From positions 48,775,272 through 48,839,271 of the forward strand of contig NC_088714.1 in the NCBI RefSeq assembly GCF_963576615.1: 64,000 nucleotides of DNA, read 5' to 3'. The position numbers and the translations under genes are program-made. Source of the DNA: Watersipora subatra. Its lineage: Eukaryota; Bryozoa; Gymnolaemata; Cheilostomatida; Watersiporidae. Position 1 is the first letter of the stretch; each line of letters starts with the position of its first letter. Shown piece after piece: positions 7,199-60,072 of the stretch. The notes below the pieces were generated by a model that worked only from the letters and a program-made list of their open reading frames with translations, searched no databases and had not been told where the DNA came from.

Positions 7199-7347
7199 TC
7201 AAGCTACACACGACATGTTATAATAAGGGCAATATTGGTCCGGAGTTGTCACATATATACATTTGTCAGCATCAAAATCAGCGCTAAAGGTATTCCATTG
7301 TTTTTTGGGTCTCTCATGGGCTAGCTGGCAGAAATAGCAGCTGTAAT
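7199..7347 (-). CDS. Fucosyltransferase gene A, exon 3 (C-terminal cysteine tail)
   Basis: This exon was found by comparison with gene B. It follows the acceptor CTTGTAG and starts in the phase left by exon 2, the joined codon being GAT (Asp). It encodes about 49 residues beginning DYSCYFCQLAHERP and ending CPYYNMSCVA, then TGA. The gene B tail shares the pattern DY-x-C-Y-x-C, AHERPK, W-x-TFS-x-DF, C, TPD-x-YCPYYN-x-SC. The match continues across the exon in the right frame, which is strong evidence for a real coding exon. A cysteine-rich C-terminus after the catalytic domain is typical of animal GT10 enzymes, where it forms disulfides. With exons 1 and 2 the protein is 413 aa. An AATAAA lies about 95 bp past the stop. 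Confidence 0.8.
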
Positions 7348-7677
7348 CTACAAGGATATAAAGGTAAAATAGTATAAAACTTAATAAGTGAGCATATGGC
7401 AGTTTGGTCTGTGTCTTTTCTGGTGCATTTGCACCAAGATAATTAACTGGAGTTGTGTTTCCGCCGAAAGCATTCTAGATAGAAAGGCTTCCAGTCTGTT
7501 TACAATTTGAAATAAGTTTTTGCACAGACTTCATACCAAACCAACTCAAAACTCTGACCATACAAAATAGGCCGCATTTTCAGCCAACAAAATACAACAT
7601 CGATATCCATTCCATTTGAACGCTTATTAGCATAAAGACAAAAGAGTGTCACTCCATTGCTGCTCACTATATACATA

Positions 7678-8064
7678 CTAGCCAAATGTCCAGAGTTGCA
7701 CGGGTATTAAAAAACAGTTTATGAACAGCGGCAGGTAATGTAGTTGTCTGCCACTCAACATTAGCCTTGCACAATGACAATGATTAATTTGAGTATGCTA
7801 CTATCCGTTTTGCTAAACTTACTACTAAGAGCCGTGAGAGCAAGCATTGGTGACATGACGTAATGCAAAGTTCTATGCGTATTTTAACCAAGATTGCCAA
7901 GATTAACTTATATTGCTTAATGAATCCATTGCATCTCCCATAACGTAATTGGTTAGCTTATTGCCTGGTGAACGGGAAGTTCCAAGGTCAAATCCAGCGC
8001 GATGCAGATGTTTTATTCCTAGATTTTAATAGCCATAGCTGAAAAGACTGCACAACAGACTTTA
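7678..8064 (+). mobile_element. tRNA-derived SINE, near full length
   Basis: Begins CTAGCC and TTGCACGGGTATT; it includes a tRNA-like part with an A box (ATTGGTTAGCTTATTGCC) and a B box (AGGTCAAATCC), then an ATAGCTG tail leading into an (AT)n tract. The copy on the minus strand at 54990-55386 matches along its length. It lies in intron 2 of gene A, opposite to the gene. Confidence 0.6.
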
Positions 8065-8100
8065 AGATATATATACATATATACATATATACATATATAC

Positions 8101-8150
<50 letters not shown>
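8064..8150. repeat. AT/ATAC microsatellite
   Basis: ATATAC repeats passing into pure (AT)n, directly after the SINE tail. Confidence 0.9.
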
Positions 8151-8692
8151 CATGTATGCATACTAATTATAGTATATATTTAGTAATTACTGATTAATAT
8201 TGGTTTTAAGTTGTTCTGGTATAAACAAACCTAATACTATTAATTAAATTTTTAGCTGGGAACAGAATACATCACCATTGTATTTCTGAAGCTATTGCAA
8301 AATATGATCGGTCATCGGTTGTACTCCATCAATGATGGTCATCAAAATCAGACAAACATATTAAGCAGAAGTTTACTGCTCTTGTGTTGGCGACGGAAAA
8401 AAAGTCATTTCTACAATCTTTTTTATACCAAACAGACTTGTCAGTGTGGAAGCAACTCTTATAGATTGTCCTGGTGTAAATGCATCATTTAGTGTCATTT
8501 CTCAACAAATATTGGGTGTTTGATAAACATGCAATATTTGCATAATTCTATGCTCAACTACACAATTATCAGCATTTGACAATTTTTTGAAAAAGGAAAA
8601 GCCGCTTTCAGTTTGGCCTGTATTAGTTTAAACCCTAGTCTAGATTAAACACTAATAGTTTTGTGCTACTATTCATATCAGATCTTATCAAG
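8151..8692. other. Gene A intron 2 sequence
   Basis: No repeat or exon seen; the 65-codon frame at 8295-8492 on the plus strand resembles nothing known to me. Confidence 0.35.
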
Positions 8693-9446
8693 AAGCCAGT
8701 GTCATTGTTGACAGTTTGGTGTAGGTGCTTTTCTAATTGTCATAGCCAGTGTCGTTGTTGACAGTTTGGTGTAGGTGCTGTTCTAATTGACATAGCCAAT
8801 GTCATTGTTGACAGTTCGGGGTAGGTGCTCTTCTAATTGACATAGCCAGTGTCGTTGTCGACAGTTTGGTGTAGGTGCTCTTCTAAGTGACAAGGCCAGT
8901 GTCGTTGTCGACAGTTCGGTGTAGGTGCTCTTCTAATTGACATAGCCAATGTCATTGTTGACAGTTTGGGGTAGGTGTTCTTCTAATTGGCATAGCCAAT
9001 GTCATTGTTGACAGTTTGGTGTAGGTGCTCTTCTAATTGACATTGCCAATGTCATTGTTGACAGTTTGGGGTAGGTGCTCTTCTAATTGACATAGCCAAT
9101 GTCATTGTTGACAGTTTGGTGTAGGTGCTCTTCTAATTGACATAGCCAATGTCATTGTTGACAGTTTGGTGTAGGTGCTCTTCTAATTGACATAGCCAGT
9201 GTCATTGTTGACAGTTTAGTGTAGGTGCTCTTCTAATTGACATAGCCAGTGTCATTGTTGACAGTTTAGTGTAGGTGCTCTTCTAATTGACATAGCCAGT
9301 GTCATTGTCGACAGTTTGGTGTAGGTGCTCTTCTAATTGACATAGCTAGTGTCATTGTCAACAGTTTGGTGTAGGTGCTCTTCTAATTGACATAGCCAGT
9401 GTCATTGTTGACAGTTTGGTGTAGGTACTCTTCTAATTGACATACA
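8693..9446. repeat. Satellite array, 50-bp unit, 15 copies
   Basis: Unit CATAGCCAGTGTCATTGTTG, ACAGTTTGGTGTAGGTGCTC, TTCTAATTGA (50 bp in all), repeated 15 times with low divergence. Variants (GTCG for GTTG, CCAAT for CCAGT) are spread among neighbouring units in a way that suggests unequal exchange. It lies in gene A intron 2. Confidence 0.92.
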
Positions 9447-10297: not shown

Positions 10298-11266
10298 CTC
10301 CTTCTATCCGATGTTTCGTTTTGTTAAGTTCATACCTATTTCTCCAGTTATGATAGTAATTAAAGGCCTTGTCATCATCTGCTACGTAGTTGAGATGTTT
10401 GGCCAAAGCTTTGGGTGAGGTAAAGTTTCTCACGTGTATAAAGCTATTTGGTGGAGCAACTTTTGTATATTCCTCTATTGACCTGCCTCCTAAAGCTACT
10501 GGAATCGTCTGTCCATTTTCTTTTAGAACTTTCCAAAACTTTTCAGAAATGTAGTCTGTGCAGAGGGTACTTTCAAATGACAAATAGAATGTATATTCTC
10601 CAAGAGCCGGCTCTGATTTGTTGGCTTCATTCTTTATCAAATCACCGAGTTGATCGAGACAGCCTTCGTATTTAGTGTACGCATCAACTCTTATATGTTT
10701 AGACAATTCCTGTACATACTCTGCTCGAGCACTCGTTACTCTGTGTTGCTTCCATAGATGCGAGCAGTGTGAGACAAACCACAGCGCTCTGGCTTCTCTA
10801 TGCTTATGCAATGCCGCAAAGTTTGTATGATTACTGTTTGGTCTTTTCAATACTTCAATAGCAAAGCTATACAAGCTTCCATCGCTGTCGGCAGCGTAAG
10901 TTACAGAATAGTTGAAGAGTCCATTCCATCTTTCTCGTTGTTTTCTGTTTAATAACAAGTGGTCATAAGGTTCCTTGGAATGAAATGCTGTCAACAAGGA
11001 GGCACCTTTCCACCTAGGAACTTTGTAATGTGTTACAGCGCGTTCGTTGAATATCACTAAGTCAGCACCGGAAATATTTGTGCCACCCATTTCTTGTATG
11101 CATTTGTATTTGCCACATGTTTGGTAAAACTTGTGGAATTTCACATTAAATCCATTCATGGTTCTTAAAACTCTTGTTTGCTCATCTTTTTTTTCATTCC
11201 TGCTTTTTTTAGGTTGTCCAACATTTGCTAAAAACTCTTTTTTACTGATGGCTTCTGCAGGATCTC
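10298..11266 (-). CDS. Fucosyltransferase gene A, exon 2 (GT10 catalytic domain)
   Basis: This exon carries the whole catalytic domain of an alpha-1,3/1,4-fucosyltransferase (CAZy GT10), which moves fucose from GDP-fucose to N-acetylglucosamine-containing glycans in the Golgi. With exon 1 attached, the family signatures are FNYSVTY followed by DSD (around residues 159-169), ALWFVSHC (202-209), the donor-site motif FYLSFESTLCTDYISEKFW (268-286), IPVALGG (296-302), SFIHVRNFTSP (about 316-326) and NYYHNWR (344-350). The exon starts after the acceptor TTGTTTATTTTAG and ends before the donor GTATGT. Both introns are phase 1 and the exon is 969 bp, a multiple of three. The usual FEN of the donor motif is FES here and in both paralogs. 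Reading past the donor gives a stop within three codons, so exon 3 is needed. Substrate specificity cannot be read from the sequence. Confidence 0.9.
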
Positions 11267-11787: not shown

Positions 11788-12728
11788 GCAACTGGAGCAG
11801 CAAAGAGAGCAAATGAAACAGCAGAGACAGCAGCAGAGAGCAGTTGGAGCAGCAAAAAGAGCAGCTGGAGCAGCAGAAAGAAGAAAATAGATGGCTGATC
11901 AAACTTCTAACGCCGAAGAACAAAATTAAAGCAGGAAGAACTACTCCTAATTTTACTGTTTTGGACCCAAATACAGAGCTGCGACAGACTATTTACTGCG
12001 CTTCAGGACATTCATAGGAGCCAATTCTATTACTGAAAACAAAGTTCCACAAGTATTTCTAATCAATCAACCAAAATTTATTTACAAACAATTAACTGAT
12101 TGGTCAGATCAACAAACTCCCAGGAAATAAGTCAACAAACTGACAATGGAAGATATTGAGGACTACATTATGACTCAATATAACTCTAGAACTTTCATCG
12201 TTAGAGAAAGATATCATTACTGGAGCAATATAAAAAAATCCAAGAGAGACAATTCAAGAGTTAGCAGCAAGAATTAGACATGATTCTACAACTTGTGACT
12301 TTGCAAGCATTACCGATGCACAAGATGAAACTTTATGTACAAGATTCATCTGCTCTGTCGGGAATGAAGCAATACTTAAAGCACTATTCAAATTGAAAGA
12401 TGAAGACCTTACTTTTGCCAGGGCTATCGAAATTGCTATGGAAATGGAGGAAGCAGCAAAAGTAGCAAAGGAGACAGTCTATGGTGCAGCAGATCCTGTG
12501 AAGGTGGTAAACAAAAAGACGACAACTTCAAAACCGTCAACATCTGCAGATCAACAGAAATGTTACCGGTGTGGAAAATCTAACCACAAATCTACCGAAT
12601 TCAGATATAAAAAATCTACCTGCAATTACTATAAACTTACAAGACATCTAGAAGTTGTCTGCCGTAAAAAGCAGAAAGGTGCTAAGCCTCTGAACTCAGT
12701 GAAGGCCGTCACAACACTGGAACACTAA
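11788..12728 (+). pseudogene. Gypsy gag relic
   Basis: A glutamine-rich coiled-coil-like start (QREQMKQQRQQQ near 11806-11850) leads through several stops into a readable capsid-like part and a nucleocapsid end. The zinc knuckle CYRCGKSNHKSTEF is near 12560-12600; its last ligand has changed, since the usual final Cys is replaced by Phe-Arg. A second cysteine group follows (CNYYK, C). The last intact frame is 12393-12728. Confidence 0.75.
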
Positions 12729-12737
12729 TCCACAGCT

Positions 12738-14515
12738 ACATGTCAACCTTGATTTACAAGGTCACACAATGACCTTGGAAGTAGACACTGGAGCGGGAGA
12801 CAACTTTATATTTCTGGAGGAAACTGGGTAGCTCTACACTCAAAACGTCAAAAGCTCAATATGAGTCCGCAACAAAAGACAAGATCGACACACTAAGAAT
12901 CTGTCTCATCTAAACAAAGCTAGATTCATATCAACATGAGAAGCAATTACATTTTGTTGTAAGCAAAATACCAAGTCTCAACCTTCTAGAAAGAAATAGT
13001 ATTCGACAACTTGGAAGCTCAGTTGATGGATTAATCAACCAATGTCAATCGTAGAAGATTAAGCAAATCAAATCCGATGGAAATCTACGAGCAGCATGTG
13101 AAAGACTTACTTCGGAGTTTTCTGATCTTTTCAAGAAAAAATTGGGATGCTTGAAGGATTTTGAATTAAATATATGCATCAAAGAAAATGCACATCCTAT
13201 ATTCTGTAAAGCTAGACCAGTACCTTTTGCCATTCAAGAGGATCTATCTCAAGCCTATGATGCCGGAATTGCAAGAGGAATATGGGAACCTGTTCAATTC
13301 AACTCTTATGGGACACCAGTGGTACCAATTAAAAAAACATTGCTGCCTGAACAAACCAAAAGAAAACTTCCAGTATGTGGAGACTACTTTGTAAACGGTG
13401 AATCATCAGTTGGAAACACACAGACAACCTATTCCACTACCAGAAGATCTGATGAAAAAAACTGGGAGGAGGACATGGTTTCACTAAACTTGACTTGGCT
13501 GATGCGTATAATCAGATTACTCTGACACCTGAAATTCAAAGGAGATTAGCTCTCATCATGCACAGAGAAGTTCTACTACAGAAGAGATTATCATTTGGGA
13601 TTAGCTCTGCCCCAGGATACTGTCAAAAAATCATGGAGTAACTAACTCAGGGTCTTCAAGGAGTTGCTGATTATCTTGATGGCATTCCAGTAAGCGGAGA
13701 CACAGCTTAAGATCACCTGAGGAACCTTTGTAGAATTCTACAAAGACTTCAAGACAGAGGACTATGATGTAGACTGAAGAAATGCACATTTGCACAAGAA
13801 ACTGTGAAATACCTAGGACAGCAAATTTCTAACCAGGTAATAGCCAAGGGAACTGGAGCGGAAGCTTTAAAGAAGATGCCAGTACCTATCAATGTGGCTA
13901 CTCTCAAATCTTTCTTGGGATCATTTCAGTTTTACCACAAATTTCTACCAGATCTATCTACAATTACAGCACCTCTCCAAAGGTTACTCAAGAAAGGAGA
14001 ACAATGACACTGAAGTACGGAACAGCAGACTGCATATTTGAAGCTGAATGAGATGCTATGCAACAACTCAGTGTTGGCACACTTTGACCCTTCTCTGAAT
14101 ATCGGGATTTCTTGTGATGCATCAGACGTTGAGCTAGGAGCAGTACTTTTTCACCAATACAAAGAAGGCAGTGAAAGACCAATTTCTCATGCTAGCAAGA
14201 CACTGACCGATACTCAGAGAAGATGCAGTCAAATTTAAAAAGAAGCTCTATCTATCATCTATGCACTAAACAAGTTTCACCAGTTTATCTATGGGAGGAA
14301 GTTCATCTTGGTGACAGATCACAAACTTCTACTAGCGCTGTTTGGACCAACTAAAGCAACACCCGCTATGGCAGCAAACAGACTGGCAAGATGGGCTCTT
14401 ACTTTCAACCAATATGACTATACCATTGAATATAGAAAAACCTCTGAACATGGAAACGCAGATGCACTCAGTCGCTTACCCATTGCACATGATGACAAGT
14501 TTGATGGAGAGAAAA
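12738..14515 (+). pseudogene. Gypsy pol relic: protease, reverse transcriptase, RNase H
   Basis: The retropepsin core VDTGAGDN is at about 12783. The reverse transcriptase covers about 13070-13990, with ARPVPFAIQEDL, the GTPVVPIKK region, the LDLADAYNQI-like motif (broken by a frameshift) and LSFGISSAPGYCQ. The catalytic box reads YLDG near 13673 in place of YLDD, so an active-site Asp is lost besides the stops. RNase H at about 14080-14500 keeps ISCDASDVELGAVL and VTDHKLLLALFG, and ends HGNADALSRLP. Confidence 0.85.
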
Positions 14516-14799
14516 AAGGCACTGTCAAGATATTAACACTGTCTGCACAATCAACACATTGGAAGTCAGCTGAATCCATTAGATCCTGGTATTCTGAAGA
14601 AAGAGACTGCTAAGGATCCGGTACTCAGCACAGCAATGAAATATCTGAAAGATGGATGGTCTAAAGGGCATGATGGCAACCAAGCTAGAACCATGACTGA
14701 AGGCTATTCTGTAAAAGATTTCAAGATACTTGAGATGTCATTGTCAGCTGATAGCGGATGCTTGATGTTTGGAACAAGAGTTGTCATACCACTATCTCT

Positions 14800-15667
14800 A
14801 CAAAGACAAGTTCTTCAACTTTTACATCTTGGACACTTTGGCATGCAGAGAATGAAGCAACTTGCTAGAACTGCTGTTTACTAGCCCAGGATGGATCAAG
14901 ACATCACAGATACTGCACACCAATGTACTTCATGCAATGAGCATCAAAACAAGCCGGATCATCTACCAAATCACCCTTGGATGATGCCAGAAAAACCATG
15001 GAGCAGAGTACACATTGACCATGCAATTAACTTCATGGGAACCAACTGGTTGGTGTTAGTGGTTGCCTACACAAAGTATCCATGTATATATGCTACCAGT
15101 TCAGTAGCAACCGAAGCTGCTAGAGACTTACTCGAGAAGGACTTTGATCACTTTGGATATCCACATACCAAAGTGTCTGATAATGGAACTACATTTACTT
15201 CCGAAGAATTTCAAGAATGGTGCAGAAATCGAGGAATCATTCACCTGACAAGAGCACCATACTATCCAGCCATCAATGAAGCTGCAGAAAGTCTAGTTCA
15301 ATTCTTCAAACAAGCGCTCAAAAAGTCGGATCTCTCAGCTCAGTCTGCTTTGCAAGAATTTTTGATGTTGTATAGGAGAACGCCACTGTCTTATGGTTAC
15401 ACACCCAGTGAACTGCTGAATAGGAGAAAAATCAGAACAAAGAGCGATACATTACTGCCATCACCAGCTCACTTAGCTCAAAGCAAACAGATGCAGGATA
15501 ACCGATCAACTAAAGCAGTTCATCATTACACAGTTGGAACACCGTGCTATGCTTTATACTGTGGACCCAAAAAAGATAAACAGCCTAAATGGGTGGAAGC
15601 TGTTGTTATCAAAGTATTTGGCAGCAGAACAGTCAATGTTAGAGTACTACCCAAAGGACCAACCTAG
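14800..15667 (+). pseudogene. Gypsy integrase relic
   Basis: The zinc-binding HHCC part is split by a stop: HLGHFG near 14826, then CTSC near 14923. The catalytic core is open from 14891 and holds the three acidic residues in context: VHIDHA, VSDNGTTF and the Glu in NEAAESLVQF. The last two are spaced as in the DD35E family. The tail carries the usual small C-terminal domain (GTPCYAL, WVEAVVIKVF). Of all the parts of the element this is the best preserved. Confidence 0.88.
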
Positions 15668-16880: not shown

Positions 16881-16896
16881 ATGGATGGTTATTGTT

Positions 16897-19143: not shown

Positions 19144-19267
19144 CTGTCATAATCCATAGCAGAGTAATAGTAGTTAATATCAGGGCAAGTAAAACCATGG
19201 CTCGACGCCTCGTGTATATCATGGTTCTTCTGTGTATACCGCGAAAGCAAATGCTGTTGTGTTTCAT
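19144..19267 (-). CDS. Fucosyltransferase gene A, exon 1 (membrane anchor)
   Basis: This is the first coding exon of gene A. It opens with ATG at 19267 and encodes 41 codons plus one base. The product starts with a basic cytosolic tail (RR at residues 13-14, RRR at 20-22) followed by a hydrophobic run AMVLLALILTTITLLWIMT (residues 23-41). This is the expected type II signal anchor of a Golgi glycosyltransferase. The exon ends ACA G followed by GTAAGA, a strong donor in phase 1. That phase matches exon 2, which needs one base in front of it, and the joined codon is GGA. Met16 and Met24 are alternative starts. The other two genes have a first exon of the same type with the same phase. A 12-bp tandem repeat lies upstream, beginning about 135 bp before the ATG. 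The join to exon 2 across ~7.9 kb is inferred. Confidence 0.7.
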
Positions 19268-19850: not shown

Positions 19851-20251
19851 TAGTTGTACTTACAGTCATTACACCTGATAGTCTCTCACCGTACACTGGA
19901 ATGCCAAAATACAAGTAGCTTTAACAATTTGGCAGGTTACAATCGCTTCTAGTCTGTGGTATTTTACCAGATAAAGTCAAAGATAGTGATTGCATTTTGT
20001 GAGCTCCTTGCTATTCTATTGTTTCCCATATACTTAATTTGTTAGTAGATTACTACAGATTTGCAAATGATTTAGATTTTTTGGCAGATGTACATTTATT
20101 TTGACTGTTATGATGAAAATTTAGCTAGATTTAATTTTGGCTGTTTGAACTGACCAATCACTTTGCTACGCTGAATGCGTATTTTGCCAATATATATTGC
20201 GATATACTTTGTATATTTGATTTTGCAATATATATATATATATATAAATTT

Positions 20252-21282
20252 TTTCTTCACCCCGGTTAACCCGTATGGGGGGGTAATTTCTGCCCTAACT
20301 CGGGTCTCCTACCACAGACCTGGGAGTTTGAGCACTCGCCTCAAGATCTTAGCTGTTCCCAATAGCGTACTTTTCTGCAACTCACCTGAGTTGATTGCTG
20401 TCGGTATTTGGGCAAGCCACACTTTATGTGCCGATGTTATTGCACCCAGTGCCCCAATGATTACCGGGATTACAGTTGTTTTTACAACCCAGCATTTTTC
20501 ATTCTCTTCTCCAAGAGGGAGATATTTCTCTACCTTTTCTTTTTCTTTGCTGGCTATATATTGTAGTCATTGGGTACTGCTATATCTATTATAGTAGCCC
20601 TCTTGTTCTCCTTGTCCACCACCACTATATCCGGTTGGTTTGCTAGGATATGCTTGTCAGTCCAGATGTAGAAGTCCCAGAGGATCTTAGCGCGGTCATT
20701 TTCATTGACCTTACCAGGAGCTTCCCACCAGTGTTGTGGTTTATTAAGGCCATACTCATCACATAGACTTCTATTCACAACATCTGCGACATGATTATGC
20801 CGCTCAGTTTATGCGTTTCCTGCTAGCTGCTTGCATCCACTGATGATTTGTTGGATGGTTTCAGGTGCATCTTTGCACAGTCTGCATCTAGGATCGTCTC
20901 TAGTTTAACAGATTTTTGTTTGGAGTTGCCTTGTTGGGAGCACTTGCTTCTGGGCTGCCATGATTAGCGACTCTGTATTGGCCGTTAGGTTTCCTTTGTT
21001 CAGCCACATATATGTCTGGTGAAGATCACCAACCTTAGATATTTGTCGGTGGTATGCACCATGAAGAGGTTTCATGTGTCAGTCAATTTCCTCATCATCA
21101 GGGTGAAGCTCCATTGTCAGAGCAGCCGATTGAAATTCAGCTAGCAACTTATCCGAAGTGGCCATGAAGGCTGCATAGGCTTTGATGCTTTGCTCTTCCT
21201 CTTTCACTGTCTGCTGTACGCTTTTGAGTTTCCTACCGCCATCTTTCCTATCGAGATACAATCTAGTAGTATCAGATACATA
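20252..21282 (-). mobile_element. Inverted 3' fragment of an R2/R4-type non-LTR element
   Basis: Minus-strand copy of the last ~1 kb of the element at 21456-24897. It retains the endonuclease core (PDIVVVDKENKRATIIDIAVP at 20579-20641) and the stretch upstream of it (20554-20778 and 21079-21261 are open). At its upstream end it meets an opposite-strand fragment of the same element, making a palindrome. The region 3' of it (20131-20187) also matches the flank of the plus copy. Confidence 0.8.
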
Positions 21283-21345
21283 TATATATATCTGATACTA
21301 CAAGATTGTATCTCGATAGGAAAGATGGCGGTAGGGAACTCAAAA
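21232..21345. repeat. Palindrome at a head-to-head element junction
   Basis: About 50 bp around ACAATCTAGTAGTATCAGAT is repeated inverted after a short (AT)n centre at ~21279-21290. Both arms match 23887-23937 of the long copy. The arm identity is high, with only single-base differences. Confidence 0.85.
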
Positions 21346-21455
21346 CATTTTAGTACAAACGCATCTGATGAGTGCATCGCACGAAACAAAATTGTAGTGC
21401 TATGACTAAAAGTTTACTTTCTTCATAATATTTTTTTATACATGTATATATATAC

Positions 21456-21530
21456 AGGACAGATAGCACAGTTGGTAAGGTATTGGGACAGTGATTATTA
21501 GGTCCTCGGTTCAAACCCCAACAACTGCAC
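21456..21530 (+). repeat. tRNA-like A and B boxes at the element's 5' edge
   Basis: TAGCACAGTTGGTAAGG (A-box-like) and CGGTTCAAACCCC (B-box-like) are about 35 bp apart, as in a tRNA. This could be an internal polymerase III promoter, a SINE head fused to the element, or part of the insertion target. Confidence 0.5.
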
Positions 21531-21727
21531 TTTTCCGGTGGTCCTTAGACAAGACCCTTGCTTGTATAACGTCTACAACCTCTATGATGAATGCAATAAC
21601 CAAAGCCATGCCGGCTCGGACGTTGCCCGGTCAAACAAGGTCCGCGCTGTCTGTAGCTGAACCAAAACAAGGCAGTGAAAAATGGGCTACTGGTTCAAAA
21701 CGGATGAAATAGACTCGGACTGATAAC

Positions 21728-22378
21728 ATGGACCTCATGCAATGCTACTTTATGAGTGAACCTCAAAAGTGGGGCTATATGGGAAGGATCCGTCAACTGT
21801 GGATAAACATGTGCCCTGAATTGCCACTAACCGCTAAGCAACTTGTAGTTCAGAGGAGTAACATAATCAAGCGGCACCTCATATCGCAACTTGAGGTAGA
21901 TGAAATTATGGAACAGTTCACTCAGGTAACCTCAACCAACGAGGAGTGCATGTAAACACACACTATCACACATACACAATCGTGTGTTGACTGACGGGTT
22001 GAAGAAGACATGCACTTGGACCTTGACCCAAGGGTAAAAGAGCTTGCGGAAAATATCCTCAACAAGATGCCAGCTGCTAATGATTATGGAAGCAGGGTAC
22101 AACTACGAAGAGTTAGCAAAGCCATACCTAAGAAGCTGTTAGAAGACATTAACTTGGCACTGGAGTCGATCTCAACTGGATCGATCAGTGAGACTAATGC
22201 CCTAATCTACAGTACAGCAATCGTCATCTTGGGGGAGATGAGTATTAAGCCACTGCCAACAAGGCTTCAAGCCATTCCATCCTGGCAGCTGAGGCTACAA
22301 AATAAGATCAAGGACTTGCGCAAGAAAGTTAGTAGGCTCAGTAAAAGATCTAATCACAGTTTGGAGCGCCCAAAATAG
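21728..22378 (+). pseudogene. Non-LTR element N-terminal region relic
   Basis: Two open segments (21728-21955 and 22010-22378) encode the region in front of the reverse transcriptase. The words MGRIRQLWI, LTAKQLVVQRSNI and LRLQNKIKDLRKKVSRLS are typical of the N-terminal part of these elements in aquatic animals. A leucine- and lysine-rich helix that may form a coiled coil ends the segment. Confidence 0.65.
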
Positions 22379-22506
22379 GAAGCCACACTAGAAGCTCTAG
22401 AATCTGCCAAACAGCAGCTAGTAGCACTCTCGGCACGACTGAAGCGGTACACCAAAGAGCGGGATAACAAGAGAATGAACAAACTGTTCATCAATATCCA
22501 TCTAAA

Positions 22507-24018
22507 GTGTATTCCCAGTTCAAAGGTGAACTGCAGAGGAAAATGTCAGATCCTCCCCGATCTAGCACTTCAAAGTTCTGGAAGGACACCTGGGAGAAAG
22601 AGACGACTCATAACACCACTGCAAATTGGCTGAAGAGGCTTAAAGAGAGCCATCAACACACTGTGGCTCAGCAAGGACTCACCATCGGCGAAGTGGACAT
22701 CAAGTGCAGAGTGCAGCGTATGAAGAACTGGGCAGCACCTAGCCATAACATGATTCAAGCCTTCTGGTTAAAGAAATTGACATCACTTCACACTAGAATG
22801 GCTAAGCAGATGGAATGCCTAATAGAACAAGGGGATCATCCAGAATGGCTGACCAAAGGACGAACTGTACTTCTGATAAGAGATCCAAAGCAGGGGCCGA
22901 TTCCCAAAAACTATCGACCAATAACGTGCTTGCCCACCACCTAGAAACTGCTCTCAGGAATAGTTGCAGACAAACTGGAAGAGCACATGAGTCACTATAT
23001 GACCAGTGCTCAGAAAGGAATTGGGCGCAACACCCGAGGAGCCAAACATCCTTTACTGGTGGACCGGACGGTCTGTCAAGACAGCAAGAGAAGGCAAACC
23101 AATCTTGCCATGGCTTGGATTGACTACAAAAAGGCCTATGACTCAATTCCCCATAGTTGGATACTTGAGTGCCTCAGTATGTACAATGTTCACCCTGCTC
23201 TTGTGGCATTCATCAAGATGTCAATGACCAAATGGAAGGCGGAACTGGAGGCTAATGGCAAAAAGCTGGCGAGTGTAAAAATAAAGCGAGGCATCTATCA
23301 AGGTGACTCCTTATCACCGCTGCTCTTCTGCATATGCCTAAACCCTCTAAGCAATATGCTGGAGGAGACTCAATATGGGTACTAGTTTAAGAGTGGCACC
23401 AAGATAAACCACCTCTTCTACATGGATGACATCAAGCTGTACGCTAACAAAGAAAGGGACATTGATTCGCTAATACACCTCACTCAGGTATACAGCAAGG
23501 ACATCGAAATAACCTTCGGTATTGAGAAATGTGGTAGGCTAATTTTTAAGAAAGACCATTCTATGCTCACAGATGGCCTAAGAATGCCAAATGGTACCAT
23601 CAAAGATATAGAAGAAGGGTGCAACTACTTGGGGATTATGCAAAGCAACATCAACCACGAAGCCGAGGTACGTCACAAAGCCATTACTGAATACAAGAAA
23701 CGCCTTCTGCAGGTCCTACGGAGCCAGCTCAATGCCAAGAACCAAGTCATGGCAATAAATACCTATGCACTGCCAGTAATAAGATATCCAGCAGGCATAA
23801 TAAAGTGGACTGAGGAAGCCATCAAGGAAACAGATATAGCAACTCGTAAACTGCTGACCATGCATGGAGCACTCCACCCAAAATCTGATACTACTAGATT
23901 GTATCTCGATAGGAAAGATGGCGGTAGGGAACTCAAAAGTGTACAGCAGATAGTGAAAGAGGAGGAGCAAAACATAAAGCATATGCAGCCTCCATGGCCA
24001 TTTCAGATAAGTTGCTAG
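22507..24018 (+). pseudogene. Non-LTR reverse transcriptase relic
   Basis: One reading frame with stops at 22942-22944 and 23383-23385. It includes NYRPITCLPTT, AWIDYKKAYDSIPHSWI (the conserved Asp motif), KRGIYQGDSLSPLLFC and the catalytic box FYMDD at 23416-23430, which is intact. After ~23985 the frame shifts relative to the minus-strand copy. Confidence 0.85.
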
Positions 24019-24239
24019 CTGAATTTCAATCAGCTGCTCTTACAATGGACCTACACCCTGAAGATGAGGGAATTGACTGGCACACGAAACCTCTTCATGG
24101 TGCTTACCAACAACAAATATCTAAGGTTGGCGATCTTCACTAGACATATATGTGGCTGAACAAAGGAAACCTAATGGCCAATACAGAGTCGCTAATCATG
24201 ACAGCCTAGGAGCAAGTGCTCCCACAAGGCATCTCCAAA

Positions 24240-24847
24240 CAAAAATCTATTAAACTAGAGACGATCCTAGATGCAGACTGTGCAAAGATGCACCTGAAAC
24301 CATCCAACACATCATCAGTGGATGCAATCAGCTAGCAGGAAATGCATAAACTGAGCGGCATAATTATGTCGCAGGTGTTGTGTATAGAAGTCTATGTGAC
24401 GAGTACGGCCTTAATAAACCACAACACTGGTGGGAAGCTCCTGGTAAGGTCAATGAAAATGACCGCGCTAAGATCCTCTGGGACTTCTACATCCGGACTG
24501 ACAAGCATGTCCTAGCAAACCAACCAGATATAGTGGGGGTAGACAAGGAGAACAAGAGGGCTACTATAATAGATATAGCAGTACCCAATGACTACAATAT
24601 AACCAGCAAAGAAAAAGAAAAGGTAGAGAAATATCTCCCTCTTGGAGAAGAAATTGAAAAATGCTGGAATGTAAGAACAACTGTAATCCCAGTAGTCATT
24701 GGGACACTGGGCGCAATAACACCGCCGCATAAAATGTGGCTTGCCCAAATACCAACAGCAATCAACTCAGGTGAGTTGCAGAAAAGTACGCTATTGGGAA
24801 CAGCTAAGATCTTGAGGCGAGTGCTCAAACTCCCAGGTCTGTGGTAG
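24240..24847 (+). pseudogene. Restriction-like endonuclease relic of the non-LTR element
   Basis: A CCHC-type motif (CRLCKDAPETIQHIISGC, around 24275) precedes the endonuclease core: RTDKHVLANQPDI, then VDKENKRATIIDIAVPND, which is the PD...D motif of the restriction-like endonuclease. A conserved end follows (VVIGTLGAITPP, GTAKILRRVLKLPGLW). The reading frame is open from 24380 to 24847. Confidence 0.85.
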
Positions 24848-24907
24848 GAGACCCGAGTTAGAGCAGAAATTACCACCCATACGGGGTATCCGGGGTGAGG
24901 AAACAAT

Positions 24908-28673: not shown

Positions 28674-28749
28674 ATGAAATCATGTCTCGTACTCTTTTTA
28701 TCTCTCATTTTGTTAGTGTTAGTCGGACATGTTTTATACATTCTATCAG
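28674..28749 (+). CDS. Fucosyltransferase gene B, exon 1 (membrane anchor)
   Basis: The exon starts at ATG 28674 and codes for 25 codons plus one base: MKSCLVLFLSLILLVLVG and a few more hydrophobic residues. It ends ATCAG followed by GTAAGA, a consensus donor in phase 1. The product is almost entirely a hydrophobic signal anchor with a very short cytosolic end, shorter than that of gene A. The upstream in-frame region has no better ATG; a nearby ATG 10 bp earlier is out of frame and closed by TGA. It joins exon 2 at 34740, giving GGT at the junction. The intron would be ~6.0 kb. The phase, donor and hydrophobic profile match the first exons of genes A and C. Confidence 0.65.
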
Positions 28750-34739: not shown

Positions 34740-35729
34740 GTCAAACAAATGTTGTCTACATTCGTGCTGTTCTTCAAAGGAGTCCAACATATGTGACCAT
34801 CTTGCCCAAAAATCACTCTACACATGAAAAGCCAACAATTCACCAAACTGCTGTTCGAATCGTCCGGCGAATGAATGGTTACAAAGCAAGGCGAGCCGCC
34901 TATCTTATCAATTGCGGGCAGTATAGGTGCCGAGTAGAATCGGGAACTTCTTCTAACGGAGCAGACATTGCATTTTTTAATGAACAGGATGTGGACTTTT
35001 ACAAAAAACCACCAAAAAAGAACCAACATGTGCTTTGGGCTTTCCAATCCAAAGAACCACAAAACCACATTTATGAAGCGATGAATGAGGAGTGGGATGG
35101 TCTTTTTAATTACTCTATTACATATGTTCGACAGAGTGATGGGGTCTTCTTTAATTTTAGAGATCGTGTTGTGGCAAAGTTACCGCCCGCCCAGATAAAC
35201 TTCGCAATGAGATATACAAATAAAAAGCCAAGAGCTCTGTGGTTTGTGTCACATTGCTTGAACCGATGGACGAAGCATCGCGTATGGAGTGCTCGAGTAG
35301 AATACGTTCAAGAACTGTTAAAATATATGCAAGTTGATGTTTTTACGAGGTCATCAACCTGCAGAACGCAATTGGGTAGTCTAATAAAAAGATTGCCTAC
35401 TGGGGGCCAACCTGCATTAACATCATATACGTTCTATTTATCATTTGAAAGCACCATATGCACAGATTATATTACCGAAAAGTTCTGGAAAGTTCTAGAA
35501 ACAAGTGGACAGACGATTCCCGTAGCTTTAGGAGGTAGGTCAATAGAGGAATACGAGAGAATTGCTCCACCAAATAGCTTTATACACGTGAGAAACTTTA
35601 CGTCACCAGAAGCTTTGGCCAAACATCTCAAGTACGTAGCAGAGAATGACGATGCTTTTAATTACTATCATGAGTGGAGAAACAACCATGTGATACAAAA
35701 GAAGTTGAAGACAATCAGATACATGGGAG
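34740..35729 (+). CDS. Fucosyltransferase gene B, exon 2 (GT10 catalytic domain)
   Basis: Catalytic exon of the second GT10 fucosyltransferase. In the spliced protein, FNYSITY lies near residue 148, ALWFVSHC at 191-198, the donor motif FYLSFESTICTDYITEKFW at about 257-275, then IPVALGG, SFIHVRNFTSP and NYYHEWR (333-339). The open frame runs further upstream to 34583, but I place the exon start after the acceptor at 34738-34739. It follows a pyrimidine-rich stretch and gives phase 1, as in genes A and C; the other acceptor at ~34589-34590 gives phase 2. The exon ends ATGGGAG before GTAAGA. The length is 990 bp, so it is a symmetric 1-1 exon. The N-terminal stem (roughly residues 26-70) is unlike the stems of A and C, while the C-terminal half is closely similar. 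Confidence 0.88.
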
Positions 35730-38949: not shown

Positions 38950-39107
38950 ATTACTATTGCTACTACTGCGTGCGAGCCCATGAGCGGCCAAAGAATGTCT
39001 GGCAGACGTTCAGCACAGATTTTAGTGCCGAACAGTGTCTTGATGTCTCTACACCTGATCTCTACTGTCCCTATTACAATATCTCATGCGAGAGCCAGAA
39101 TCTGTGA
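38950..39107 (+). CDS. Fucosyltransferase gene B, exon 3 (C-terminal cysteine tail)
   Basis: The exon follows the acceptor ATTTTGTAG, continues the phase of exon 2 (joined codon GAT) and encodes about 52 residues to TGA. It begins DYYCYYCVRAHERPKNVW and ends near YCPYYNISCESQNL. The match to gene A's exon 3 in order, spacing and frame identifies both. Five cysteines are conserved between the two tails. The intron (~3.2 kb) contains the 49-bp satellite and a decayed SINE. The spliced protein is 407 aa. Confidence 0.8.
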
Positions 39108-43637: not shown

Positions 43638-44010
43638 CGAAGAAGTCTTGAACACAATAATGATCCATTGATGTACCATAATTCATCAAATAAATACTTA
43701 ACAAACTATGAAATAATAACAAATAGCGTTTATAGTTTAAGCTGTCTCATAATTATGATCTCCACTGTAAAGCAGAAAATTTTTTCAACACTTATTAACA
43801 CTTTTCATTACAAATAGAAGTGTGTATTTGCATAAAATCGGAAACTTTATTGACCATACAGAATCTATTCATAACCGAAGAACAAAAGACCTATTGAAAT
43901 TCTTTAGAATTGTGGCTAGCTATACAGAGGCGCTTTTATCAATCGTTAGACCAACAACGAGTAATGCAGACAGACTGTTTCAGTATCTTCTATGCTTTAA
44001 GCTACGGAGC
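43638..44010. other. Upstream of gene C exon 1
   Basis: The stretch 43655-43775 resembles 53655-53765, just upstream of gene C exon 2. This suggests a small local duplication. The likely promoter or 5' UTR of gene C lies here. Confidence 0.4.
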
Positions 44011-44095
44011 ATGAGCACTCCGTGTAAGATATGGAAACGTACACTCACTATATGTTTAATAGTAATTGGATCAGCGATAGCATTTCAACTAGCAG
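44011..44095 (+). CDS. Fucosyltransferase gene C, exon 1 (membrane anchor)
   Basis: The exon runs from ATG at 44011 for 28 codons plus one base: MSTPCKIWKRTLTICLIVIG, then SAIAFQLA. A short tail with Lys and Arg precedes a hydrophobic anchor (about residues 11-28). The donor is AGCAG followed by GTAAGG, phase 1, and joining to exon 2 gives GTC (Val). The frame is open upstream of this ATG but holds no earlier ATG. It is the only such exon I found between gene B's end and gene C's catalytic exon. The implied intron of ~9.7 kb is the longest of the set, so the link is less certain than in gene B. Confidence 0.6.
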
Positions 44096-51589: not shown

Positions 51590-53360
51590 CAGTGCATCTT
51601 AGGTCAGTACAACGCGTATACAACGCATATACAAGGCACTTACAACGCACAAACATTGTGGATACAACGCGCATACACTAGCATCACAACACACATACAA
51701 CGGTCATTAGAAAATAAATAGAATACTTTATGTGATGTTTTAGACCTGTTTTATTAACAGACTATAAATATAAATAAAGTATTGAATAATAATAACATAA
51801 TATTATTACTATTATTATTATTAAACATTAATATCATTAATAATACTAGAAATTCCCCTGTCATACAGCCCATGACCAAAGTAATATCGGAAAAAAAGGG
51901 TACTGATGGTTGAGAAATGCAATATTAGCAGTTAAATGGCACTGCAGTGCAATAGGATAACTGCAATGGTAGCTGTAATGTACTGGGTGCGGGTGTTATT
52001 ATATACAACAAACAGCAATAACGAAAAGAAAAGAATATATATCTTCCCCTGCAGTAGGAGAACTGCAATATTGGCCAATATTAGAAGTAGAATGCACTAA
52101 TATTATTAGTATAATCAATATTATTAATATAGTAATAATAGAAAACCAATGCACAATTTTGTTTACATTTCAAACTTCATAGCTAACAATATCAAGAAGT
52201 TGTGATATTTATATAGATTTTTAGAAAATCTATTTAAAAAAGTGTTTGGTCATGACAAACAGCAATAATGAAAGAAAAGGAATATATGTTTATATCTTTC
52301 CCTTGCAATAAGAGAAATGCAATATTAGAAGTAAAATTCACTGATATTATTAGAATAACCAATATTATTAATATAGTAATACAGTAATAATAGAAAACCA
52401 ATGCACAATTTTGTTTACATTTCAAAACGTCATAGCTAACAATATCAAAAAGTTGTGATATTTATATAGATTTTTGGAAAATCTATTTAACAAAACTATT
52501 TAGAAAAAATAATAACAGTAACATATTGCCCATCATCGATGTTGTTTGTGTGACTATAACACTTCAATAGTCATCCAAACTTATAATTAAATATTGTAAT
52601 AATCTCATAAGAATCGTTAGAAAAAAATATCATCATCATTTCCTTTACTTTCACTGCTATGGACATCAGTTATAATATTAAAGTACTCAAATTTTCCAAA
52701 ATGTCAGTTTGTTTGAAATCGGCAAAAAAGAAACGATTCAGTATTCCTACGTTAATTACAGAAACCTTCAGCAATTCGTCAATGCTATAGACTGGTGAAA
52801 TGTGCACGTTATTTTTTCGTGAAATGCTCACAACTTAATAGTTCTATTCTCTGTCGCTTGGCGTTTCAATTGCCGGTCTTAATTTTGATAAAAGTAAGAC
52901 TTACCAAGTTGTAATCAATCACGGTTTTTAAGCCAAATAAATCTGTCTATTTGTGTATAATCCGTTCAGATGGGTAAGTTTAAGAATATGTCGACACTTT
53001 TCAAAGACTTGGTAATATATTTAAATAGGTTTATATGTGTTTTGTATCGTTATTATACTTAAACGACTCCACAAAAAAATGGTTAAATTTGTTTATGAGA
53101 TTTCGATACAATGGTTTGCGACGTTGTTGATGAATAATTTTCGTGAGTTGTGTGCACATGCATTTATCATAAAAACTCTCAAACATTCGCTCCGCTCGTT
53201 TGGTCGTGGGAATAATATATTAACAGTGTCACGTTGTGCCGCATGCATTGTTAATTACTTGTGTCGGTGTTGTATTCGCAATGTTTGCGCGTTGCAAGTG
53301 CCTTGTATGTCCGTTGCGCATGCGTTGTATGAGCGTTGTACCGACCTAAGATGCATCGTT
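51590..53360. repeat. Inverted repeat arms around Helitron copy 2
   Basis: About 75 bp at 51590-51665 (TACAACGCATATACAAGGCA and similar CAACGC words) recurs inverted at 53275-53350 with mismatches. Helitron copy 2 occupies the space between. Confidence 0.6.
51846..53211 (-). mobile_element. Non-autonomous Helitron, copy 2
   Basis: On the minus strand it starts TCCCACGACCAAACGAGCGG (53211) and ends GCTGTATGACAGGGGAATTT then CTAG (51846-51849), with T outside. Most of it matches copy 1 inverted. A segment of about 240 bp is duplicated in tandem inside (51998-52246 and 52253-52495). Confidence 0.7.
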
Positions 53361-53814: not shown

Positions 53815-54729
53815 TCTGGCTGTGGAACTTGTTCATGAATGCCGAGCCCATGGTAACGCTTAGACGTCTAGATGGCTATCAGACAGGTCTCTCGTCTCGT
53901 GTCATCCACTGTGGAAAACAAAAATGCCTTCTGCAGTGTGGTCGGAATACCACTTATGGCGCTGATCTTATTTTTTTCAATGAGAAGGACGTCAACTATT
54001 ACGTAAAGCCGCCTTCTCTGAATGAACAGACTTTAAAAGCCTTCCTCACCAAAGAACCACAGAACCATTTGTACACAGCCAACCATGAATCATGGGACGG
54101 CTTTTTTAACTATTCCGTAACCTACTCTGAGGACAGTGAAGAAGGTCGATACTTTAATTTTCCGAGAAAACTAGTTCGTAAGTCTTTGAGCGATCGACGA
54201 AACTTTGCTCTAAATTACAGCACTCGACATCCTCGAGCGCTGTGGTTTGTTTCGCATTGCTTACACAGATGGAAACATCACAGCGTGCAAAGTGGAAGGG
54301 TTGAGTATGTTCAGGAGTTGTCTAAACATTTTCCTATAGATGCGTATACACAGCACAGTGTGTGCAAAGAACAACTCGGTGATTTGATCAAGAATGAAGC
54401 CAACAAATCAGAGCCGGCTCTTGGAGAATATACATTCTACTTGTCATTTGAAAGTACCCTCTGCACAGACTACATTTCTGAAAAGTTTTGGAAAGTTTTA
54501 GAAACAAATGGGCAGACGATCCCAGTAGCTTTAGGAGGCAGTTCAATAGAGGAATATGAGAAAGTTGCCCCACCGAATAGCTTTATACACGTAAAAAACT
54601 TTAGCTCACCAAAAGCTCTGGCCAAACATCTCAAATATGTAGCAAAGAATGACTGGGCCTTTAATTACTACCATGAGTGGAGAAATTACTACCTCCTGCC
54701 CAAACGGATAATGACCCGGTCAATTGGAA
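53815..54729 (+). CDS. Fucosyltransferase gene C, exon 2 (GT10 catalytic domain)
   Basis: Catalytic exon of the third GT10 fucosyltransferase. It follows the acceptor TTCTTGTTGCAG and ends ATTGGAA before GTAAGT; both introns are phase 1 and the length of 915 bp is a multiple of three. In the spliced protein FNYSVTY is near residue 126, ALWFVSHC at 170-177 and the donor motif FYLSFESTLCTDYISEKFW at about 236-254, followed by IPVALGG, SFIHVKNFSSP and NYYHEWR. The stem is shorter than in A and B. A 126-bp stretch around the donor motif is nearly identical to gene A although the first half of the domain is much more diverged, suggesting gene conversion. The open frame past 54729 ends after 17 codons and is unlike the paralogs' tails, so I treat it as intron. 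Confidence 0.9.
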
Positions 54730-55515: not shown

Positions 55516-55562
55516 ATTTTCAATGCAAATTGCTACACTGCTTTCACAACAACATTCCATGA
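55516..55562 (+). CDS. Probable gene C exon 3 (short divergent tail)
   Basis: Candidate last exon. It follows an acceptor ending TGTAG and starts AT in the phase required by exon 2, giving AAT (Asn) at the join. The product is NFQCKLLHCFHNNIP then TGA. Its beginning lines up with the other genes: G-DYSC in A, G-DYYC in B and G-NFQC in C, with the first Cys codon at the same place and the same TGTAG|ATT junction. After that it diverges and stops early, lacking AHERP and the CPYYN block. It may be a truncated functional tail, or a chance match with the real exon lying elsewhere or beyond the window. The spliced protein would be 348 aa. Confidence 0.4.
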
Positions 55563-56107: not shown

Positions 56108-56757
56108 ATAAATAAACAATAATAAAATACATAGTGTTTATGTAGACACACGCACGAACAATAATAAAATACATAGTGTTTACGTAGACACACGCACAAA
56201 CAATAATAAAATACATAGTGTTTACGTAGACACACGCACAAACAATAATAAAATACATAGTGTTTACGTAGACACACGCACGAACAATAATAAAATACAT
56301 AGTGTTTACGTAGACACACGCACAAACAATAATAAAATACATAGTGTTTACGTAGACACACGCACAAACAATAATAAAATACATAGTGTTTACGTAGACA
56401 CACGCACAAACAATAATAAAATACATAGTGTTTCCGTAGACACACGCACAAACAATAATAAAATACATAGTGTTTACGTAGACACACGCACGAACAATAA
56501 TAAAATACATAGTGTTTACGTAGACACACGCACAAACAATAATAAAATACATAGTGTTTACGTAGACACACGCACAAACAATAATAAAATACATAGTGTT
56601 TCCGTAGACACACGCACAAACAATAATAAAATACATAGTGTTTACGTAGACACACGCACAAACAATAATCAAATACATAGTGTTTACGTAGACACACGCA
56701 CAAACAGTAATAAAATACATAGTGTTCACGTAGACACACGCACAAACAATAATAAAA
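56108..56757. repeat. Satellite array, 42-bp unit, ~15 copies
   Basis: Unit AATAATAAAATACATAGTGT, TTACGTAGACACACGCACAA, AC. Copies differ by single bases (CGAAC or CAAAC; TTACG or TTCCG). As 42 is a multiple of three, long frames of 14-residue repeats appear on the minus strand; they are not proteins. Confidence 0.93.
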
Positions 56758-56979
56758 TGGTACTTTTTAGTTTAGATTTGACCATAACTATAACTGAGCA
56801 GTACATACTTTAAAAAGACTGTTCAGTAATTACATTTTATTTTAACGCTTAGGATACATAATATCTCTGTCTATATGTCTATGCAGAATAGGAAATGAAA
56901 ATATCTAAAACTTTCATGGACTCTTGTGAATACAGCAAGTAAAACCCAACATATTTGAGCTTGTTAGAAAGCCTATAGT

Positions 56980-57873: not shown

Positions 57874-58477
57874 GGATTGTATTTTTATGCAGACTAATAC
57901 TATGTAGCCCAATGAAGCTCCTTCACTAAAACCAAGATGTTGTGAAAGTGTTCAGCAACCAGGCTTAGTTTTTTATACGCAGTTTGAATAAAGGGTAAAC
58001 ATGTATGACGGCTTCACAAGTGCTGCCGTTCACAAGTGCTGCCGCTCCAGCTGCTATCAGTTATCATACAGTGATAACCATCTTGTATATCCATCAATAT
58101 GCATATGAGCTTGTGGATCTGTATCGAACAAGTACCAAAGTCAACCTTAGTGCAGTCTGAGTATTAACCTTGAAATTCCTAACAACAATAATCAAAGAAA
58201 GTAACATTTTTCACTTCAAAAAGTAGCCTGTTGAATGTATATATATATAGTACATTATTGGCAATAATTTCATACCACAAATAGAAATGTAGAGTTGCGT
58301 TTAATGCAGGCAGATACAAAATATTTTTATTTTCAAAGAAAATGCGTCTTCACAAGTTGTCAAACTCAAAGTAAAATCTTTAAAAAAATGCACATAATAA
58401 ATGTGTACGTAAATCAAGGTTGAACAGAGAAACAATAAACTTTGTTATTTGTTAACTCACTGAGTTTAACTCTTTCT
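57874..58477. other. Intergenic, nothing recognised
   Basis: A short direct repeat (CACAAGTGCTGCCG) at 58014-58040. No other feature seen. Confidence 0.4.
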
Positions 58478-58808
58478 ATATGTTAACAACTACATTCTGT
58501 TTGATCATTAACTATTGTGTTGTTATATGTTAACAACTACATTCTGTTTGACCATTAACTATTGTGTTGTTATATGTTAACAACTACATTCTGTTTGACC
58601 GTTAACTATTGTGTTGTTATATGTTAACAACTACATTCTGTTTGATCATTAACTATTGTGTTGTTATATGTTAACAACTACATTCTGTTTGACCATTAAC
58701 TATTGTGTTGTTATATGTTAACAACTACATTCTGTTTGACCGTTAACTATTGTGTTGTTATATGTTAACAACTACATTCTGTTTAACCATTAACTATTGT
58801 GTTGTTAT
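58478..58808. repeat. Satellite array, 47-bp unit, 7 copies
   Basis: Unit ATATGTTAACAACTACATTC, TGTTTGACCATTAACTATTG, TGTTGTT. Variants GACC/GATC and CCA/CCG alternate in the order 1-2-3-1-2-3, suggesting duplication of a three-unit block. Confidence 0.92.
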
Positions 58809-59384
58809 CAATACAACTAGAGTTCTCTTTATGCTTTTGTTTCTAAGCATGCCAAATTTCTCTGAAAGTTTTCTCATCATAAAACTAGGGGCAACATGAT
58901 AGTGATTATTTGCCTAAGGCAGCAAAGCGCTGAATCAATTAAAAAAGACAGCATGCTCTTTGGAACAACTTGAAATAACATAGTTACCGAACAAATTCCA
59001 CATTGTTTTTTTTAAGTTTTTCCTTTGATGATAGCTTTCAAAATGCCCACAGCTAGTTGAGCCTTTCCCTTCTTTGACCTTTTTGGATCGGTTGAAGATT
59101 TTTTTGGTAAAATCATGACTGCATCATTTAAAAGGCTTTATTTACTCCAACATTGAAGGACGCAGGCACTACTGTAATTAAATACCACTATAAACATCTT
59201 AACTATCTTAAATTTAAATCATCTTAACATACTAAACTGTTCAGCCCGCTAAATTGAACTTCATGGTCCAACAGAGAAACATGGTAAAAGGCATTTCGGA
59301 GCAAAAAAACAATCATTTAAGGTTGGATTGCTGCTTTTAGACAGGCTTTACCTTTTTTTAATTTATTTTTTATGTTGCAGCGCC
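58809..59384. other. Intergenic, nothing recognised
   Basis: No exon or repeat recognised. Confidence 0.4.
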
Positions 59385-59562
59385 ATACAGGTTTGTAACA
59401 GCGTCATACAGGTTTGTGGCAGCGCCATACTTATTTGTGGCAGCGTCATACATGTTTGTGGCAGCGCCATACAGGTTTGTGGCCACGTCATACAGGTTTG
59501 TGGCAGCGCCATACAGGTTTGTGGCAGTGCCATACAGGTTTGTGGCAGCGCCATACAGGTTT
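59385..59562. repeat. Minisatellite, 21-bp unit, ~8-9 copies
   Basis: Unit GCAGCGCCATACAGGTTTGTG with a few variants. The length is a multiple of three, so both strands carry open frames. Confidence 0.9.
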
Positions 59563-59954
59563 TAGGTTTTCTTAAAAGCAGAAAAAAACTGTAGAAGTTA
59601 CTAATTAATAAGTAATAGTCGTGTCAAACAAGTTTTCGAGTCAATGGTAAGGCCTTGAAGTAAACGCAGACAGAATAAAACCTATTTTAGTCAAAGTGCA
59701 CTACTCCAGCAAATACCCGTTTTATCTTCACCTCAGGCGTGGGTCAAGGAACTCAACATTACGTTTGTAGCGCAGCACGAACATTACCTGGCTGCTGAGG
59801 TTGACTACTAGTGATTGTTATGCTCAACAGACTCCACTCAAATTCACCGTTATTGGCACTGAGCTCTACTAGAATCGATGGCTATAGGCACTGAGCTCTA
59901 TTTACATTAGTGGTTACAAGCAATGAATCCTGCATATTTTAATGGTTGAGCGCA

Positions 59955-60072
59955 ATGAGCTCTATTCACAATTCTCATCAAATTTGTCAAGACTATTGTC
60001 TTTTTGCTTTTTTCTGGCTCTTTCCCCTTTCGTTCTCCTCTTCCTCTCTTTGTATCATGAAACATAGCAAAG
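59955..60072 (+). CDS. Possible first exon of a fourth fucosyltransferase (gene D)
   Basis: ATG at 59955 opens 39 codons plus one base. The encoded segment has a hydrophobic stretch YCLFAFFWLFPLSF near residues 14-27, then serine-rich residues and ends MKHSK with AAAG before GTGAGA, a good donor in phase 1. The anchor type, phase and strand fit the first exons of genes A-C, and it lies where the next tandem gene would begin. No catalytic exon follows within the remaining 4 kb; it would have to be past the window end. A chance hydrophobic open frame is the main alternative. Confidence 0.3.

Follow-up and report, generated by a model that had tools for sequence, protein, structure and literature searches.

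The window examined here is a stretch of 64,000 nucleotides from the bryozoan Watersipora subatra (contig NC_088714.1, C7 below; C7:48775272-48839271), and the genome searched around it is the 784 Mb assembly of 239 contigs. By stop-to-stop reading and the PF00852 profile, the window contains three large frames with a GT10 (alpha1,3-fucosyltransferase-type) domain, which we refer to as genes A (minus strand), B, and C (both plus strand). Each gene comprises a membrane-anchor exon, one catalytic exon, and a tail exon, with an open frame from anchor to tail in all three (Table 1). The initial annotation had placed the three GT10 catalytic exons at these positions, and its measurements agree with ours: exon 2 spans 969, 990, and 915 bp in A, B, and C, with phase 1 on both sides, while the anchor exons (124, 76, and 85 bp) end in phase 1 before GTAAGA, GTAAGA, and GTAAGG. 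Five of its six splice junctions were likewise supported. The sixth, 54729/55516 in gene C, was not, because the tail it joins matches neither the A nor the B tail by tblastn and a matching tail lies at window-equivalent position 68186.

The tail exons complete the enzyme domain. Exon 2 alone scores 136.7-143.5 bits against PF00852 (curated cut-off 23.9), but in A, B, and C the match ends at profile position 144-148 of 182, and thus the GT10 domain is unfinished within exon 2. Adding the tail exon moves the end of the match from 148 to 172 in A and from 147 to 171 in B, and the tails of these two genes are homologous to each other (66% identical, tblastn E 2.6e-19). Among solved structures, human FUT9 comes nearest (B, E 3.8e-19; A, E 6.5e-19), and a FucTA is next; the FUT9 alignments of A and B cross the exon 2/3 junction and reach the C-terminal CxxC. 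This motif is present in the tails of all three genes, and in A and B it aligns with the FUT9 C-terminus. The C-terminal CxxC is a defining feature of the GT10 family, and in human FUTs it is disulfide-bonded to N-terminal cysteines. All 11 tabled genes with both exons, and also locus L020, either have or lack two cysteines together: the first of a C-x4-C in exon 2 and the first of the tail CxxC. Because the genes lacking both cysteines form one clade in the tree of the N-terminal part of exon 2 (N part), this co-occurrence may reflect a single loss.

At the other end of the protein, exon 1 of A, B, and C reaches a hydropathy of 2.29-2.95 over 17 residues, giving a short N-terminal part and a single anchor before the catalytic domain. 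This is the expected layout of a type II Golgi-type membrane enzyme, and the three proteins are predicted to reside in the Golgi and to act as fucosyltransferases, possibly of the Lewis or the core type. No match for B exon 2 was found in NCBIfam, a prokaryotic library, and the window contains no RNA families at the gathering threshold and no tRNAs.

For gene C, the initial annotation had proposed a tail at 55516..55559 (+), encoding FQCKLLHCFHNNIP. With this candidate, the PF00852 match of C does reach position 166 rather than 144, yet the gain is only 1.5 bits (136.7 to 138.2), and by tblastn the candidate matches neither the A nor the B tail. We rejected it in favor of a tail recovered by searching the whole genome with the B tail (41 matches; all 46 candidates scored). 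One match, at C7:48843456, lies 4.2 kb past the window end and is 54% identical to the B tail; it opens at the phase-1 acceptor TTTTGTCAG/ATTACC (slashes mark exon boundaries) and reaches its stop at window-equivalent position 68418. It extends the PF00852 match of C from 144 to 171 and adds 5.2 bits (136.7 to 141.9). Between 54729 and this tail we found no further GT10 catalytic exon, and gene C would thus encode 410 residues, with a second intron of 13.5 kb.

The possible fourth gene of the initial annotation, for which no exons were named, did not survive. The end of the annotated stretch, 60072, fits the donor G/GTGAGA, which follows an ATG at 60057 that encodes just the five residues M-K-H-S-K, without a hydrophobic stretch. 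We found no GT10 catalytic exon after gene C up to 20 kb beyond the window end, and the anchor scan described below found no plus-strand anchor downstream of C exon 2 in the window.

The three-exon plan extends well beyond this locus. Across the genome, 150 PF00852 matches were scored among 207 candidates, and the resulting counts are lower bounds. We classed matches by their PF00852 end as full-type (at least 165) or split-type (143-162) and set partial matches aside, with limits chosen after seeing the list; this yielded 84 full-type, 34 split-type, and 32 partial matches, with the largest groups on C8, C2, and C5. The repertoire therefore amounts to at least 118 near-complete GT10 domain matches (84 + 34), some with stops. 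Every split-type match (34 of 34) is followed on its strand, within 20 kb, by a distinct tail match of its own (median distance 2.0 kb, longest 17 kb), whereas none of the 84 full-type matches is. Seven tail matches remained unpaired, five of them with internal stops. At eight of the 84 full-type loci (L001-L008), inspection by eye found a single open frame that covers the start, hydrophobic stretch, catalytic domain, and CxxC end. The genome thus holds two GT10 classes, one that looks single-exon and one with three exons.

The splice sites of the three-exon class are uniform. In all 13 genes read (A, B, and C plus 10 of the 31 other three-exon genes), the WRN motif is followed by a phase-1 donor, and a phase-1 acceptor opens the tail in all 11 genes with tail sequence in hand; these junctions were picked by eye among other GT/AG sites, and for two tails the start was set at the nearest AG, 6 and 9 bases away. 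The common phase in 13 genes is shared descent, not 13 independent events. The shared plan that the initial annotation recognized in this cluster is upheld both here and genome-wide and, judging from sequence, is the normal structure of a subfamily within a known enzyme family. In two C9 genes (C9:38636167 and C9:39028788, loci L041 and L037), the intact tail is followed after about 1.07 kb by another tail-like match that contains stops, a tail duplication. In the C9:39.63 gene, exon 2 is followed at about 400-670 bases by a partial second GT10 stretch (L043).

Anchor exons were sought with a scan that looked for a hydrophobic stretch of 17 residues between an ATG and a strong phase-1 donor, written with the three exons already known. 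On both strands of the window, it returned exactly three sites, at 19144 (-), 28749 (+), and 44095 (+), which are the three anchors already annotated; the first is the sole anchor-type candidate on the minus strand. In 13 upstream regions (127 kb), the phase-1 scan gave nine sense sites in nine genes and no antisense sites, and 20 sets of dinucleotide shuffles gave four phase-1 sites in total. Phases 0 and 2 together gave one sense and two antisense sites in the same 13 regions. A tenth anchor, that of g10_15.57, was recognized by homology (77% identical to its neighbor's anchor). Anchors are conserved between paralogs in the C10/C11 group and similar in two C9 genes.

Within exon 2, divergence between A, B, and C is a mosaic. 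About half of the bases differ outside a tract of about 85-105 codons that covers the conserved GT10 donor motif, compared with only 9-15% inside it. The tract runs from YTFYL (QLGDL in the A-C comparison) to YYHxWR(N); donor and acceptor motifs were placed on the three genes by alignment and family knowledge, not by fold. Four-fold sites follow the same pattern, with differences at 20/30 sites in the N part and 8/29 in the tract for A-B, 17/26 and 5/33 for A-C, and 24/28 and 10/28 for B-C (one-sided Fisher p 0.0028, 9e-5, and 1.4e-4, respectively; these and the other mosaic p-values are uncorrected for multiple testing or relatedness). Four-fold sites are thus near saturation in the N part and not in the tract. 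In the tail exon, differences are high again at the few sites available (8/9, 3/3, and 4/6). The two parts also yield conflicting trees, as B and C group together in the N part (support 0.895 for protein, 0.937 for DNA) and A and C in the tract (0.80 and 0.97). By permutation, the longest identical run was unusual for A-B (16/2000) and A-C (14/2000).

The contrast recurs elsewhere in the genome. A trio at C7:42 Mb has the same contrast (p 0.002, 1.7e-4, and 9e-4), as do two pairs out of three on C9 at 38.6-39.6 Mb (p 0.019 and 0.0034). Altogether, it is found in eight of 15 within-group pairs but only two of 63 between-group pairs at p < 0.05, the two being B-g7_42.147 (p 0.038) and B-g9_39.03 (p 0.048). 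In codon columns, the A-C tract spans 229 to 333, and those of the other seven pairs start at 248-254 and end at 332-335. The low-divergence island has nearly the same limits in three genomic groups, about YTFYL/FEN to YYxxWRN, with the A-C start 19 codons earlier. Among full-type genes, the pair L001/L002 is divergent in the N part and near-identical in the remainder.

Table 1. Exons of GT10 genes A, B, and C and their low-divergence tracts (window positions; slashes mark exon boundaries).
Feature	Position	Strand	Description and evidence
Gene A exon 1	19144..19267	-	Start codon, short cytoplasmic part, membrane anchor; phase-1 donor CAG/GTAAGA
Gene A exon 2	10298..11266	-	Stem and most of GT10 domain; phase 1 at both ends; donor GAG/GTATGT; PF00852 E 4.2e-41
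Gene A exon 3	7199..7347	-	C-terminal tail, CxxC and stop; 66% identical to B tail; extends PF00852
Gene B exon 1	28674..28749	+	Membrane anchor; phase-1 donor CAG/GTAAGA
Gene B exon 2	34740..35729	+	PF00852 E 7.6e-42; junction contexts
Gene B exon 3	38950..39107	+	Tail, CxxC and stop; homology to A tail, PF00852 extension, FUT9 alignment
Gene C exon 1	44011..44095	+	Membrane anchor; phase-1 donor CAG/GTAAGG
Gene C exon 2	53815..54729	+	PF00852 E 9.2e-40
Gene C exon 3	68186-68418 (window-equivalent, outside window)	+	Tail; match to A/B tails; PF00852 to 171
Donor-motif tract in A (A-C comparison)	10338..10652	-	29/315 differences inside, 284/591 outside
Donor-motif tract in C (A-C comparison)	54372..54686	+	29/315 differences inside, 284/591 outside
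Donor-motif tract in B (A-B, B-C comparisons)	35426..35680	+	Inside 33/255, 37/255; outside 341/681, 315/651

In alpha3-FucTs, the well-conserved C-terminal part has motifs assigned to GDP-fucose binding, and acceptor choice has been ascribed to a motif that varies more (excerpted text of PMC3655985). Very probably, A, B, and C are three paralogous GT10 genes with anchor, catalytic, and tail exons, members of the subfamily of 34 exon pairs, in which the donor tract, in this group and two others, is kept alike by gene conversion or ectopic recombination. Under this model, recombination between neighbors would homogenize exon 2 over about 85-105 codons of its donor (GDP-fucose) part, the N-terminal acceptor part of exon 2 and the tail exon would diverge freely, and each gene's own tail exon, with its CxxC, would close the GT10 domain. 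We infer conversion as the cause of the mosaic, and likewise a common donor combined with varied acceptors.

Several observations weigh against this reading. Regarding the gene models, the exact acceptor position of exon 2 is provisional, and ambiguous in B, which has a second phase-1 acceptor at 34668; no anchor exon was found in the 9.5 kb upstream of three of the 13 genes read; and PF17039 (the GT10 N-terminal domain) scores only 16.5, 19.8, and 17.9 bits in A, B, and C, and 17.7 bits for C joined to its own tail at 68186, all under the cut-off of 28.7. Stops interrupt the matched stretch of seven of 34 paired tails, three of 34 split-type, and three of 84 full-type catalytic matches; at least one such stop falls beyond the exon end, and some of the GT10 matches carrying stops are remnants. 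Regarding the mosaic, only four-fold sites separate conversion from constraint, and these are few, at 26-33 per cell for A, B, and C and 3-9 in the tail exon. The longest identical run of B-C is not unusual (1243/2000 permutations). The third C9 pair, a recent duplicate, trends the opposite way (97% identical in the N part, 92% in the tract), and none of the six pairs in the C10/C11 group, whose four genes are close throughout, has the contrast.

The same gene structure could also carry a low-divergence tract produced by strong selection on the donor motif, at the protein or nucleotide level, without recombination. The tract is indeed the most conserved region in amino acids, and for this reason two of four between-group comparisons (B-g9_38.63 and C-g7_42.147) return the same limits, with 30% difference inside and 55-56% outside; yet such coincidence with strong protein conservation is also expected if only similar stretches can convert. 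Selection fits the silent sites poorly: the same codons differ at 48-78% of four-fold sites between groups, compared with 15-36% in the eight contrast pairs, which indicates that nucleotide constraint is weak. Together with the conflict between the trees of the N part and the tract, this makes selection by itself quite improbable. A history in reverse is a little easier to entertain but still unlikely: the genes would not be old copies with a homogenized donor part but would have arisen by recent duplication of whole genes, after which divergent members supplied new N-terminal halves and tails. The mosaic alone is silent on the direction of transfer, and both histories leave the same pattern. 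Replacement would, however, need to have hit both sides of the tract in every gene, as the tail exons have diverged too, and a self-comparison of the gene regions listed only exon 2, the A-B tails, and dispersed repeats as similar.

It is similarly improbable that some of A, B, and C are unexpressed pseudogenes whose frames happen to be still open. The long introns contain transposon pieces, including an integrase fragment in intron 1 of A, and some other GT10 matches of the genome have stops, both of which would suit decaying genes. Against this, all three genes keep open frames from anchor to tail and intact splice phases, and the conserved cysteines of exon 2 and tail are present together.

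Several repeats and transposon remains were also noted in the window. Intron 1 of A contains retrotransposon remains at 12234-15667 (+), in which an integrase core (PF00665 E 1.8e-12) and a zinc-knuckle-like region occupy separate frames. Minisatellites with 90-97% matches occupy parts of intron 2 in each gene: 8694-9444 in A (unit 50 bp), 36207-37135 in B (49 bp), and 56114-56758 (42 bp) and 58477-58808 (47 bp) in C. A reverse-transcriptase-like frame at 20124-25108 (PF00078 E 0.001, below cut-off) lies between the arms of a 1.05 kb inverted repeat (20227-21277 and 24931-23883, 93% identical). A 516 bp direct repeat (25261-25776 and 27244-27759), its copies 99% identical and 2 kb apart, may represent the two terminal repeats of a young insertion. 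Finally, an inverted dispersed repeat of about 0.95 kb (89% identical) is found at 4276-5225 and 52256-53211, and partly also at 43180-43646.

Comparison with known systems places these genes within a familiar enzyme family. Human FUT9 and the vertebrate alpha1,3-fucosyltransferases (FUT3-7 and 9; GT10) share the GT10 catalytic domain and the C-terminal CxxC with A, B, and C, whose N-terminal anchor also agrees with the family description in the excerpted text of PMC3655985. In that text, vertebrate FUTs 1-6 and FUT9 are single-exon, unlike A, B, and C, where the anchor and tail are separate exons. The alpha3-FucTs of Schistosoma mansoni likewise form an invertebrate GT10 multigene family with conserved exon junctions, but with six alpha3-FucTs and 6-10 exons in FucTA-F (PMC3655985, same excerpt), whereas the genes described here have three coding exons and far more copies. 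According to the same excerpt, every invertebrate alpha3-FucT gene is multi-exonic except for a schistosome gene reported to have a single exon; the eight full-type loci read in the present genome look single-exon.

Lineage-specific expansions of this family are known from other invertebrates. A horseshoe crab has 29 FucTC genes in about 820 kb (PMC7210998, in excerpt), and PF00852 proteins cluster and diversify species-wise in three molluscs (PMC4223053, in excerpt). The W. subatra repertoire is a similar expansion, here with at least 118 near-complete matches in two structural classes; the excerpted horseshoe crab and mollusc accounts (PMC7210998, PMC4223053) make no mention of donor-half conversion. 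Among the matches listed in the open-licence literature, which leaves most subscription journals outside, no title or abstract opening concerned conversion limited to the GT10 donor half. The excerpted text of PMC8433944 contains nothing on disulfides in GT10 enzymes, and PMC1940262, in excerpt, mentions fucosyltransferases solely among its references. The vertebrate UGT1 cluster works alike in combining a variable acceptor half with a common donor half, but as excerpted from PMC1885805 it does so with one shared set of constant exons and no prevalent gene conversion. Shared constant exons of the UGT1 kind were not found here: each gene has its own complete exon 2, with the donor half inside that one exon, and its own tail.

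The genes themselves look like ordinary GT10 fucosyltransferases; what is unexpected is the replicated homogenization of the donor half and the size of the repertoire. For the subfamily, our analysis offers a firm gene model in which the tail exon can lie as far as 17 kb away and completes the catalytic domain; models restricted to a single exon would therefore miss the end of the enzyme. It also offers a replicated example of neighboring genes that stay alike only in the donor half of the enzyme they encode. We tentatively suggest, as a possibility just short of even, that domain-restricted gene conversion in three separate genomic groups has built a "constant donor, variable acceptor" repertoire, supplying what UGT1 gets from its shared exons. 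If this is true, sugar-transfer specificity could diversify while catalysis stays intact, and the acceptor halves of these genes would form a natural library for new fucosylation specificities.

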